Assembly (NCBI GenBank): GCA_001304015.1
Contig: LJUY01000099.1
Span: forward strand, 1 to 5,100
Length of the DNA stretch: 5,100 nucleotides
Direction of reading: 5' to 3'
DNA from: a candidate division Zixibacteria bacterium SM23_81
GTDB taxonomy: Bacteria > SM23-81
Shown here: positions 530-5,100 of the stretch, piece after piece
How the letters are laid out: every line of letters begins with the position of its first letter
Numbering within the stretch: position 1 is the stretch's first letter
Notes under the pieces: generated by a model
Told to the model about the DNA's origin: nothing
The model's database searches: none
The model's input: only the letters and a program-made list of their open reading frames with translations
Position numbers and translations under genes: made by a program

Positions 530-564
530 AAAAGGGGTGTATTGAAACACCTCTTTTCTTTTTT
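530..564 (+). terminator. Intrinsic terminator after the M48 protease gene
   Basis: Arms 530-540 (AAAAGGGGTGT) and 547-557 (ACACCTCTTTT) pair over 11 bp with one G-U wobble and a 6-nt loop. The arms are followed by C and six T residues (559-564). This is a textbook Rho-independent terminator for the upstream gene. Confidence 0.88.
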
Positions 565-829: not shown

Positions 830-857
830 TTGACACTGGATTGGTTAAACGTATATT
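830..857 (+). promoter_or_regulatory. Probable sigma70-type promoter of the exporter operon
   Basis: A perfect -35 box TTGACA (830-835) is followed by a 16-nt spacer and TATATT (852-857), one mismatch from TATAAT. It lies about 75 nt upstream of the adaptor's ATG and downstream of the M48 terminator, which is where an operon promoter is expected. No clear operator repeat overlaps it. The call rests on consensus match and position only. Confidence 0.6.
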
Positions 858-932: not shown

Positions 933-2346
933 ATGCGGAAGCTAACTGTTCTTTTACTGACGATTCTTATCGTCGCAGCCGCATTGGTTTACTTCTACTT
1001 GAAGGGCCGACGAGCAGCCGCGCTTTCGGCTGGCCCAAGTCGAAAGGGGTCCTATCATAAGCGCAGTATCCTCCTCAGGCACGCTTAATGCCGTTATTAC
1101 GGTTCAGGTGGGGTCTCAGGTCTCTGGGCAGATCAAGGAACTTTTGGCTGACTTCAATTCGGAGGTTCGTGCGGGCCAGGTTATCGCGCGGATAGACCCA
1201 CAGGATTTCGAAGCCCGTGTGCGGCAGGCCGAAGCTGAGCTTGAGGTGGCCCGTGCCAACGTGGCAATACAGCGAGCTACCGTAGAGCGCGCACGAGCTG
1301 AACTGAGAAATGCGCAAGCGGCACTGGCAGCTGCCAAGGCCCAGACCGATAAAACGAGCGTGGCCGTCACTGACGCCAAGCGGGACCTAGATCGTAAACA
1401 GGCGCTTCACAAACGTGCCGTCATCTCGGAAAGTGATCTGGAAAAGGCCATGGTCGCCCATGAACAGGAGATGGCCCAGTTGAATCTCGCACAGGCCGAG
1501 CAGCGAGCCCAGGCTTCCCTGGTCAACTCACGAAAAGCCATGCTCAGGATGGCAGAGGAACAGGTGGTCCACGCAATTGCCCAGGTGGAGCACCGAGAGG
1601 CGTTTCTCCAGCAGAGCAAGATCGATCTGGAGCATACCATCATCCGTTCCCCCGTGGACGGGGTGGTCATCGAGCGGAGTGTTGATATCGGCCAGACGGT
1701 GGCGGCAAGTCTCCAGGCCCCTACGCTTTTCACCATCGCCCAGGATCTTCGGAAGATGCAGGTAGACACAGATATAGACGAGGCCGATATCGGTCTTATT
1801 TTAGACGGCCAGAGGGCGACTTTTAGCGTGGATGCCTTTCCGGGAAAAGAATTCAGCGGTCGGGTCGAACAGATCCGCAAGGCGCCCCACACATTGCAGA
1901 ACGTGGTGACCTACACGGTGGTCGTTTCAACTGAGAATCCCGACCTGCGCCTGCTCCCAGGCATGACTGCCAACGTGAAGATCGTGGTGGACGAGCGGAC
2001 CGAGGCCCTCAAGGTGCCCAACGCAGCGCTCCGCTTTCGAGCGGATGACAAGGAAAAGGAGGGAATAGCAGCTGTGGGGGATTCAACGACAGGCGGTGTT
2101 TTTGGCTCTGGGGCCGAGGTTGAGGCAGACAGGATGAGCCGCCTGTCTAATTCGGTGACGCGAGGACGGGTCTGGGTGCTCGATCCGAAGGGGAACCCTT
2201 CTCCGGTGGACATCATTGCCGGCATCAGCGACGGCAGTTTTACCGAGATTGTACGGGGCGATCTCAAACCCGGCCAGAAGGTGATCGTTGGGGTCATATA
2301 CCTATCGCGAGGCTCTTCCAGCCGTGGAAAAAGGCTAGGCTTGTGA
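933..2346 (+). CDS. macA: MacA-type periplasmic adaptor of a tripartite ABC exporter, with an internal frameshift
   Basis: Membrane-fusion (HlyD/RND adaptor) protein that would link the inner-membrane exporter to an outer-membrane channel. The start ATG 933 encodes MRKLTVLLLTILIVAAALVY, an N-terminal membrane anchor, but that frame ends at TAA 1086-1088. The rest of the protein is in the next frame, open from just after a TGA at 1000-1002. There FRLAQVERGPIISAVSSSGT (from 1024) and VQVGSQVSGQIKEL (from about 1102) continue the family's conserved N-terminal region. Counting from GTG 1108, a first lipoyl half is at about 1-30 and a long Ala/Gln/Glu-rich coiled-coil hairpin at about 35-175. The second lipoyl half, IIRSPVDGVVIERSVDIGQT, is at 178-197, and a beta-barrel and membrane-proximal region runs from about 215 to the end. 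Dropping one base would give 470 residues. GTG 1108 is the only usable in-frame start for the downstream part and would make an anchorless, truncated protein. Family assignment is firm; whether the gene is functional is unclear. Confidence 0.85.
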
Positions 2347-2347
2347 A

Positions 2348-3085
2348 GTGGGTGACCCTCTTTTAAAAACCGAGGGTTTGGTCAGGGACTACCATGTCGG
2401 ATCCCAAGTGGTCCGGGCCCTGGGCGGTGTGTCCATTGAGGTTGAACGGGGAGAATTTGTGGCGGTCATGGGGCCTTCTGGTTCGGGCAAGTCCACGTAC
2501 ATGAACCTTCTCGGCTGTCTCGATAAACCTACCGCGGGTCGGTATATCCTTGATGGGGATGACGTCTCCTCCCTCAGTCGTAGCCAGCTCGCCCATATCC
2601 GCAACCGCAAGATCGGTTTCATCTTCCAGACATTTAACCTTCTTCCTCGGACCACGGCCCTGGAGAATGTGACCTTACCTCTCATGTATGGAGAAATTCC
2701 TCGTCGGGAGCGCCGGAAAAAGGCGGAAGCCGTTCTTGAAGACGTTGGGCTCTCGGACCGTTCCCACCATCTGCCCACCCAGCTTTCAGGTGGAGAGCAA
2801 CAGCGCGTGGCCATTGCCAGGGCCCTCGTGAACAATCCAGCCCTTATACTAGCGGACGAGCCCACCGGCAATCTGGATACCAGGACGGGCATTGAAATCA
2901 TGTCGCTGTTGCAACGGTTCAACCGGCAAGGCGTCACCATCGTGCTCGTAACCCATGAGAGCGAGATCGCACGTTTCGCCCAGCGTATCCTTCTTTTTCG
3001 CGATGGGCGGCTCATAGGTGACGAAATAATGAAAGATCCCGCGGAGGCTGAGAAATCGAGCGACACGGAGGCACCATCCCCATGA
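2348..3085 (+). CDS. ABC exporter ATPase subunit, MacB/LolD/FtsE type
   Basis: Cytoplasmic nucleotide-binding subunit that drives the MacB-like permease by ATP hydrolysis. At 245 residues it is a single-domain ATPase with every catalytic element: Walker A GPSGSGKST (42-50), Q-loop Gln94 in FIFQTFNLLP, signature LSGGEQQR (146-153), Walker B LILADEP (166-172) with Asp170 and Glu171, D-loop GNLD (174-177) and switch His203. The sequence MNLLGCLDKPTAG (52-64) after Walker A is typical of the MacB/LolD group. It begins at GTG 2348, one base after the adaptor's stop, with only a weak AAGG 13 nt upstream. Translation therefore probably depends on coupling. The acidic, Ser/Pro-containing tail after about residue 230 is variable in the family. 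In E. coli MacB this domain is fused to the permease; here it is a separate gene. The transported substrate cannot be read from the sequence. Confidence 0.95.
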   Translation: MGDPLLKTEGLVRDYHVGSQVVRALGGVSIEVERGEFVAVMGPSGSGKSTYMNLLGCLDKPTAGRYILDGDDVSSLSRSQLAHIRNRKIGFIFQTFNLLPRTTALENVTLPLMYGEIPRRERRKKAEAVLEDVGLSDRSHHLPTQLSGGEQQRVAIARALVNNPALILADEPTGNLDTRTGIEIMSLLQRFNRQGVTIVLVTHESEIARFAQRILLFRDGRLIGDEIMKDPAEAEKSSDTEAPSP

Positions 3086-4314
3086 GATATCCAGATTCGG
3101 TCCTCGCCGCCCTCCGAGCGCTCCGAGCCAATGTCCTGCGGAGTGTACTTACTACCCTCGGAATCATCATTGGCGTGGCTGCTGTAATCATCATGATCGC
3201 CGTCGGCGCCGGAGCTGAGGCACGAATGGCCCAACTCATAAGCAGTCTGGGGTCCAACCTGATCATGGTGCTCCCCGGGTCAGGGACGGCTGGAGGAGTT
3301 CGCCTCGGCGTGGGAACGCAGCCGAGCATCACGGAAGATGATGCAGCCGCCATCCAGCGAGAGATACCCAGCGTGCAGGTTGCGGCACCCGGTATGCGTG
3401 GCAGCGGTCAGGTCGTATCTGGCAATCTCAACTGGTCAACCGTTATCTACGGCGTGACGCCCGAGTATCTTGAGGCGCGCGATTGGCAAATGGCAGGCGG
3501 CCGTGTTTTCACAGCCGAGGAGGTCAAAGGAGCGGCAAAGGTGGCGCTTCTCGGCAACACGGTGCTCGCCAACCTATTTCCCGGTCAAGACCCGCTCGGA
3601 CGGATCCTGCGGATCAACCGCGTTCCCTTTAAGGTCATTGGAGTACTCAGGGACAAAGGGGAGACGCTCATGGGTCGCGATCAGGACGACACAGTCTTCA
3701 TCCCCCTCTCCACGGCCAGAAAACGGGTGCTCGGCGGCCGTGAGTTGGGCGGCAACACCGTAGACACCATCTTCGTGAAAGCATGGAACCCAGGACTGGT
3801 CTCCCTGACGGTGGATCAAGTAAAAAAGCTGTTACGCCAGCGGCACCGGCTGAGGTCAGGCCAGGATGACGACTTCTTCATTCGAAACCTCTCCGAGATC
3901 CTCGAAGCCAGGGCCGAATCCTCTCGCGCCATGTCCCTGCTGCTGGCAGCGGTGGCCTCAGTATCCCTACTCGTGGGAGGCATCGGCATCATGAACATCA
4001 TGCTGGTCTCGGTGACGGAGCGTACCCGCGAGATTGGGCTCCGTATGGCCGTGGGCGCTCAGAGCCATGACATCCTCGGGCAGTTCCTCATAGAGTCTGT
4101 GACGCTTTCACTGATCGGTGGCCTCATCGGTGTCGTTTTAGGGCTAGGTGGCTCTGTAGCCATGGCCACGCTCGGCGAATGGCCCACGGTTATCGAGATC
4201 AAGTCAGTGGTCCTGGCCTTCGGTTTCTCGGCTGCGGTGGGCGTTTTCTTCGGGTTTTACCCTGCACGCAAGGCAGCACGTCTCGATCCCATCGAGGCGC
4301 TGCGCTACGAATAA
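3082..4314 (+). CDS. MacB-type ABC exporter permease subunit
   Basis: Inner-membrane permease of the type VII (MacB/LolC-E) ABC family, which uses a mechanotransmission mechanism to push periplasmic substrates outward instead of carrying them across the inner membrane. The 410-residue protein has the expected layout: TM1 at about 21-43 (LGIIIGVAAVIIMIAVG), a large periplasmic MacB_PCD domain at about 45-280, then TM2 (about 284-310), TM3 (about 334-360) and TM4 (about 372-392). The conserved coupling segment SVTERTREIGLRMAVGA (310-326) follows TM2. The C-terminus GFYPARKAARLDPIEALRYE (391-410) is the classic family ending, so the gene is complete. ATG 3082 overlaps the ATPase stop by 4 nt (ATGA) and has GGAGG at 3067-3071, 10 nt upstream. 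With the two preceding genes it forms one exporter. No TolC-like gene lies nearby. Likely cargo includes antibiotics, peptides or lipids, but nothing here decides it. Confidence 0.95.
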   Translation: MRYPDSVLAALRALRANVLRSVLTTLGIIIGVAAVIIMIAVGAGAEARMAQLISSLGSNLIMVLPGSGTAGGVRLGVGTQPSITEDDAAAIQREIPSVQVAAPGMRGSGQVVSGNLNWSTVIYGVTPEYLEARDWQMAGGRVFTAEEVKGAAKVALLGNTVLANLFPGQDPLGRILRINRVPFKVIGVLRDKGETLMGRDQDDTVFIPLSTARKRVLGGRELGGNTVDTIFVKAWNPGLVSLTVDQVKKLLRQRHRLRSGQDDDFFIRNLSEILEARAESSRAMSLLLAAVASVSLLVGGIGIMNIMLVSVTERTREIGLRMAVGAQSHDILGQFLIESVTLSLIGGLIGVVLGLGGSVAMATLGEWPTVIEIKSVVLAFGFSAAVGVFFGFYPARKAARLDPIEALRYE

Positions 4315-4440
4315 GCCAACAGTTTGTCACAAATTCCTTGCCGTTCGAAGAATTGTACCATGAGCTTCCCGGGCAGGAGCTCAAACTATTAAAGGTTTCA
4401 GGATGATATCGAGGTCTGACTTCAGCCCCCTTTTTGTTTA
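4315..4440 (+). other. Short structured region downstream of the exporter operon
   Basis: No gene is visible. Two imperfect hairpins can be drawn: 4332-4339 with 4348-4354 (AATTCCTT against AAGAATT, one bulged C), and 4361-4369 with 4376-4383 (TGAGCTTCC against GGAGCTCA, one bulged T). An outer AGTTTG/CAAACT pairing (4321-4326, 4382-4387) competes with the second. None is followed by a T-run, so I do not call a terminator. They may be an mRNA 3'-end structure or chance. Confidence 0.3.
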
Positions 4441-4665
4441 ATGGTGTCTGAAATATTCAATGCTGAGAGGGTCAAAAAGCGAGCAGAATATAGTGAGAGA
4501 AACCTCATAGAAGAATTCAACACAAGATCATTTGACAAAATCTCCGAGTGTGCTAGGGTGGAGATACCGGAAGCGACCGCTCACGAGATGGTCAAATAGG
4601 CCGAGGCGGAAGCTGAACCTGATATTGATCTGAAGGCTTACTTTCTTCCGCACGGAGGAGAGTAA
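4441..4665 (+). pseudogene. Small reading frame interrupted by an amber codon; possible gene remnant
   Basis: From ATG 4441 the frame encodes 52 residues up to TAG 4597-4599. It then stays open for 21 more codons to TAA 4663-4665. The residues on both sides read like one acidic, helical, soluble protein: before the stop, RVKKRAEYSERNLIEEF (10-26) and VEIPEATAHEMV (40-51); after it, AEAEAEPDIDLKAYF. A single C-to-T change (CAG to TAG) would explain the stop. The pattern of a charged helix, then VEIPE, then a helix ending in DLxxYF loosely recalls the C-terminal chaperone domain of trigger factor. I regard that as a suggestion only. No ribosome site precedes the ATG, and the 5' flank is T-rich. 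It could instead be a genuine small protein of 52 residues, or chance. The terminator stem overlaps its 3' end. Confidence 0.35.
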
Positions 4666-4673
4666 GCCTTTTT
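4635..4673 (+). terminator. Strong intrinsic terminator before the TPR gene
   Basis: Arms 4635-4649 and 4654-4668 form a 15-bp stem, with two G-U pairs, closed by a 4-nt GCAC loop and followed by five T residues (4669-4673). Two additional A-T pairs can extend the base. This insulates the TPR gene from upstream transcription. The TAA of the small interrupted frame (4663-4665) lies inside the 3' arm. Confidence 0.88.
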
Positions 4674-4723
4674 ACATGACATGAGCCAAGGGCCATCCGC
4701 AAGGAAAGGGGGGACTTAGAATC

Positions 4724-5100
4724 ATGAGAACGTCAACACAGATTCTCTTAGTATGGATGCTGCTGTTATCGTGCACTGCCTCCACCTTTGCTCAGGAGGC
4801 ATTGTGGAAAGAGCTATACAGTAAGATTGTTACCCTTCATCAACAAGGGCGGTATGGAGAAGCGGCCAAGGTGGCTGAAGAAGCCTTGACAGTTGCAGAA
4901 AAGACATTTGGTCCTAACCATCCCTATGTGGCCACTTCCCTGAACAATCTGGCGGGACTTTACCAAGCCCAGGGTAAATATAGCGAGGCTGAGCCGCTTT
5001 ACAAGCGAGCACTGGCAATAGAGGAGGAAGCCCTTGGTAAGAATCATTACCGTGTGGCGACATCCCTGAACAACCTGGCGGGACTTTACCAAGCCCAGGG
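4724..5100 (+). CDS. Exported TPR protein with kinesin-light-chain-type repeats, N-terminal part (3' end outside window)
   Basis: Probable protein-protein interaction scaffold outside the cytoplasm. ATG 4724 is preceded by a purine-rich AAAGGGGGG (4705-4713), 10 nt away. Residues 1-23 form a signal sequence: MRTSTQ, a hydrophobic core (ILLVWMLLL, 7-15), then STFA|QE (20-25), a good signal peptidase I site. Cys17 in LLSC is a poor lipobox alternative that would make it a lipoprotein. A degenerate first TPR spans about 27-68 (GRYGEAAKVAEEAL, 42-55). Full 42-residue repeats then begin at V69 (VATSLNNLAGLYQAQGKYSE) and V111, with the typical AEPLYKRALAIEEEALG second helix. These are TPR_10/TPR_12 kinesin-light-chain-type repeats, usually present in many copies, so the protein probably continues well past the window. 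It follows a strong terminator, so it must have its own promoter, which I could not identify. The partner protein is unknown. Confidence 0.88.
   Translation, partial: MRTSTQILLVWMLLLSCTASTFAQEALWKELYSKIVTLHQQGRYGEAAKVAEEALTVAEKTFGPNHPYVATSLNNLAGLYQAQGKYSEAEPLYKRALAIEEEALGKNHYRVATSLNNLAGLYQAQ
4928..5100 (+). repeat. Tandem 126-bp repeat encoding TPR units (second copy cut by window end)
   Basis: The unit starting at 4928 recurs at 5054, exactly 126 bp (42 codons) later. Over the 47 comparable bases (4928-4974 against 5054-5100) there are 3 differences, all at third codon positions and synonymous. This near-identity at DNA level suggests recent duplication or ongoing homogenisation of the TPR units. 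Confidence 0.85.

Follow-up and report, generated by a model that had tools for sequence, protein, structure and literature searches.

Does an exporter adaptor gene that reads in two frames reflect a real loss in its host, a fault of the draft sequence, or an unorthodox way of decoding? The question is raised by the window analysed here, a stretch of 5,100 bases that is an entire contig, presumably of metagenomic origin, from a draft genome of 3.07 Mb (99 contigs, 92.6% complete, 4.05% contaminated). It holds a MacAB-like exporter operon, in which the adaptor gene is followed by an ABC ATPase and then by a MacB_PCD/FtsX permease (Table 1). The preliminary description of this DNA had called the ATPase and permease intact, and Pfam and NCBIfam matches bear this out. 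The near-identical tetratricopeptide repeats at the 3′ end are the likely cause of the contig break there.

Table 1. Features of the 5,100-base window, with the evidence for each; L140 and L141 are loci of related adaptors.
Feature	Coordinates	Strand	Evidence
M48 (HtpX-like) peptidase gene, 3′ end, cut by contig start	1-507		
Strong terminator-like hairpin and T tail, 3′ of the peptidase gene	530-563		
Probable sigma-70-type promoter, TTGACA-N16-TATATT	830-857	+	Pattern scan, 11/12 matches
Adaptor 5′ frame: membrane anchor MRKLTVLLLTILIVAAALVYFYLKGR at the N-terminus, followed by out-of-frame residues as far as TAA 1086-1088	933-1088	+	ORF; N-termini profile, i-Evalue 9.2e-5
Frame-loss (indel) zone	1000-1023	+	TGA 1000-1002 upstream; motif spacing; DNA alignments with L140 and L141
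Adaptor 3′ frame: MacA-like periplasmic body (barrel-sandwich, alpha-hairpin, beta-barrel)	1003-2346	+	Pfam, NCBIfam and PDB matches
Exporter ABC ATPase (MacB-type nucleotide-binding subunit), intact	2348-3085	+	Pfam ABC_tran 1.2e-34; NCBIfam MacB 1.2e-75
MacB/FtsX-type permease, intact	3082-4314	+	Pfam MacB_PCD 2.6e-48, FtsX 6e-20
Tetratricopeptide-repeat gene, near-identical repeats, contig terminates within	4724-5098		

One adaptor gene in two frames

The anchor frame runs from ATG 933 to its TAA and encodes 51 residues, exactly where the preliminary description had placed it. The body frame, likewise shut upstream by TGA 1000-1002 as described, opens at 1003 and continues to TGA 2344-2346. 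Within the latter, the family-like sequence FRLAQVERGPIISAV starts at 1024, and joining both frames yields 470 residues. When the three frames were compared with a profile of relatives' N-termini, the body frame matched model positions 30-77 (i-Evalue 1.5e-26), the anchor frame matched positions 7-35 (i-Evalue 9.2e-5), and the third frame gave no match. Because the two matches are consecutive along one model, the frames are parts of one gene and not a chance juxtaposition: they are the two halves of a single MacA-like adaptor gene, one base out of step.

The identity of the body is clear. It matches HlyD_D23 (3.3e-20) and HlyD_3 (4.1e-16) in Pfam and RND_mfp in NCBIfam (5.3e-48; 163.6 bits against a cut-off of 94.9), and its best PDB matches are all MacA (chains 9qgy, 3fpp and 5nik). 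The barrel-sandwich, hairpin and beta-barrel of a MacA-type periplasmic adaptor are all present, while the N-terminal anchor, which belongs in the same reading frame, lies in another. The adaptor is a MacA-type gene, broken as sequenced. Against PRK11578, the E. coli MacA equivalog model, it scores 134.2 bits where the cut-off is 342, and is therefore MacA-like and no MacA equivalog.

Kind and place of the indel

The spacing of conserved motifs in the family can show whether a base was gained or a few were lost. From the start codon to the body motif, relatives span 31-36 codons with a mode of 32 (smaller values reflect a second, internal methionine, and some relatives' starts are not ATG), and the two closest, L140 and L141, both span 32; the window spans 91 nt, or 30.33 codons. 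The 30-residue spacing that one surplus base would require is absent from the relatives. The body motif, [YF]R, stands 28 residues ahead of VGSQ in the window, a distance shared by 40 of 41 relatives (the remaining one unmeasured). The stretch from the YFY that closes the anchor to the RFR motif measures 22 nt (7.33 codons) in the window and 24 nt (8 codons) in L141 and most relatives. DNA alignment to L141 places a 3-nt in-frame gap within the anchor and a 2-nt gap right after it, and alignment to L140 places a single 5-nt gap.

Because the window's spacing is short, losing 2 (or 5) bases net fits the family better than gaining one. Given the poor conservation of the anchor, this counts as moderate evidence. 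The preliminary description had removed one base to obtain a continuous 470-residue protein; its arithmetic holds, while its reading of a surplus base is disfavoured by the relatives' spacing. It had also placed the switch between about 1003 and 1024; with a loss of bases, the breakpoint could fall somewhere around 1000-1014.

Relatives, selection and genomic setting

Relatives were sought in 1,017 genomes, and 49 were examined, 47 of which reach the junction. The closest adaptors, all from one order, are L141 (77% identity over matched segments), L140 (70%) and L142-L144 (64-67%); many further ones, 57-62% identical, come from another phylum (L034, L045-L073). Both groups are uncultured. L038 and L041 lack an N-terminus because their contigs end there. 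In every one of the 47 junction-reaching relatives one open frame spans both anchor and body, which makes the window's contig the only one to show the split. Relatives with both frames separate, which the preliminary description had named as a sign of a conserved arrangement, number zero among these 47, and such an arrangement is rejected. Searches elsewhere added little: viral contigs and the phyla of genomes G034 and G101 gave nothing useful, the best match among genome contigs was just 28% identical, and plasmids reached at most 47%. Nor was the window's first upstream gene of use in placing the contig.

Several features of the relatives lie away from the junction. The order of the operon is the same in L140 and L142-L144. 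Upstream of its macA, L140 has both promoter hexamers in the same order (TTTAGTTGACA...TATATTC); this near-consensus promoter is common to L140 and the window (830-857), the remaining upstream DNA being dissimilar. In its C-terminal part, the adaptor of L140-L144 differs from that of the window by a helical insert of about 80 residues, which includes an LTPEQ-type motif. At 2060-2180 the window lacks this insert in frame and keeps a possible remnant, GAEVEADRMSRLSNS. Many relatives from the other phylum lack the insert as well, so its gain or loss seems common. L056, whose anchor is in frame, is interrupted much further along by an in-frame TAG within the hairpin region. Finally, the ATPase gene next to macA in L141 (323-965, minus strand) is itself broken: it has lost the ABC signature stretch (LSGGEQQRVAIARAL), with a change of frame.

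Selection on the body bears on the age of the fault. Compared with L141, the body has a dN/dS of 0.19, and its mismatches by codon position (99, 64 and 228) are concentrated at the third; Tajima tests gave no sign that the window's branch has gathered surplus amino-acid changes. Because the body is under purifying selection with no acceleration of rate, the fault is either recent or an artefact.

The base composition of the operon deviates from its surroundings. The exporter genes (1003-4314) have a G+C content of 58.7%, compared with 44-48% in the flanks (1-900 and 4315-5100) and 53.3% in the genome, placing the operon within the top 0.8% of genome windows, and three other genomes of the phylum have no close homologue. 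For these two reasons the exporter cassette may have been horizontally acquired. Pseudogenes are reported to be about 2.3 times likelier than genes to look horizontally transferred (PMC522871).

Mutation, error, and likeness to known systems

The reading given about an even chance is that a recent, lineage-specific small indel, of which a 2-base (or 5-base) deletion is the likeliest form, breaks the MacA-type adaptor just after its anchor. The site is the linker that immediately follows the membrane anchor of a tripartite MacAB-like exporter adaptor. Translation from ATG 933 would yield a 51-residue peptide, consisting of the anchor and out-of-frame residues, and would stop at TAA 1088; the body would go unmade, or would arise at an internal start as a fragment with no anchor. 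With the body not made properly, the exporter would lack a working adaptor despite its intact ATPase and permease. This reading is favoured by the single frame of every junction-reaching relative, by a spacing that falls 2 or 5 bases below, not one base above, that of the family, and by a site devoid of any run of more than three identical bases. The usual error is a single-base slip in a homopolymer, and a loss of 2 or 5 bases is atypical. The possibly horizontal origin of the cassette and the broken ATPase gene of L141 also speak for mutation. On the other side of the ledger, the body has not decayed, which an error would explain equally well.

The chief rival is such a sequencing or assembly error, whereby the organism's own macA is unbroken and the offset arises from the reads or from the merging of strain-variant reads. 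Its probability falls somewhat short of even: real inactivation stands slightly ahead, and error is nearly as likely. A fault unique to the window among 47 relatives, an otherwise intact operon with a body under purifying selection, and a contig of just 5.1 kb in a 99-contig draft assembly all count in favour of an error. According to Antonov et al. (PMC3711429), frameshifts that are isolated and validated by homology should mostly be sequencing errors, a prior that likewise counts for error and against mutation. Error is opposed, however, by the same lack of a homopolymer and the same deficit of 2 or 5 bases, and by the rest of the genome. In 0.643 Mb of the host genome, a phased-hexamer Viterbi scan flagged 16 apparent frame switches, and in 0.400 Mb of a complete, single-contig control it flagged seven; its sensitivity in both genomes was 46% (55 of 120 simulated mid-gene indels found). 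Inspection by eye of the flanking stops and starts left about 4 of the 16 resembling truly interrupted genes. The genome as a whole thus shows no clear surplus of frameshifts, and an assembly ridden with indels throughout is rejected. The scan misses the window's own near-terminal indel because the anchor is short.

It is improbable that the gene is split yet partly functional, its body being made separately as an unanchored adaptor through internal initiation at GTG 1108 or a coupled restart. The body ORF is indeed long (412 residues from GTG 1108) and conserved. However, GTG 1108, the first start codon in the body frame, lies inside the conserved VQVGSQVSG strand, so that its product, missing the barrel-sandwich's first strand as well as the anchor and any export signal, would be cytoplasmic and incomplete. 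Moreover, no Shine-Dalgarno sequence is evident at this codon, and none of the relatives is split likewise.

Decoding mechanisms fare worst. Programmed +1 ribosomal frameshifting, which would fuse anchor to body and set the level of the adaptor, suits an offset of exactly +1 and the retention of family sequence in both halves up to the switch zone, but is very improbable, given that 0 of 47 relatives conserve the transition, that 1000-1030 contains neither a slippery run nor an anchor-frame stop codon, and that RNA folds around the junction are average (z about 0.15). The prfB-type frameshift site requires a stop codon, and stop-coupled frameshifting is rejected on the same three counts of motif, fold and conservation. 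Equally improbable is a non-canonical +1 recoding confined to this lineage, which would join anchor to body and fix how much anchored adaptor is made relative to ATPase and permease. Phase variation is rejected as well, the switch lacking a simple-sequence repeat: a single doubled triplet, CGACGA, occurs in 1000-1030. The preliminary description had seen no classic slippery site and had preferred error or mutation to programmed frameshifting, and both judgements hold: the relatives are all single-framed, recoding signals are absent and the body is under purifying selection. The phenomenon is ordinary, of little weight beyond annotation, and suggests no special decoding mechanism. The fault is a sign either of recent gene loss or of an error in assembling a draft genome, and, as sequenced, the exporter is not to be counted functional.

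Among known systems, the closest in architecture is the macrolide/peptide exporter MacAB-TolC. The window shares with it the gene order of adaptor, ATPase and permease, and shares with its MacA (3fpp, 5nik, 9qgy) the domain order of N-terminal inner-membrane anchor, barrel-sandwich, hairpin and beta-barrel. Unlike MacAB-TolC, the window encodes the nucleotide-binding and permease parts of MacB as separate genes, and its adaptor gene is frameshifted. With respect to the frameshift itself, the window differs in no notable way from singleton frameshift genes and prokaryotic pseudogenes (PMC3711429, PMC522871): like them, it presents an isolated, homology-validated and non-conserved frame transition, here situated in an ABC-exporter operon.
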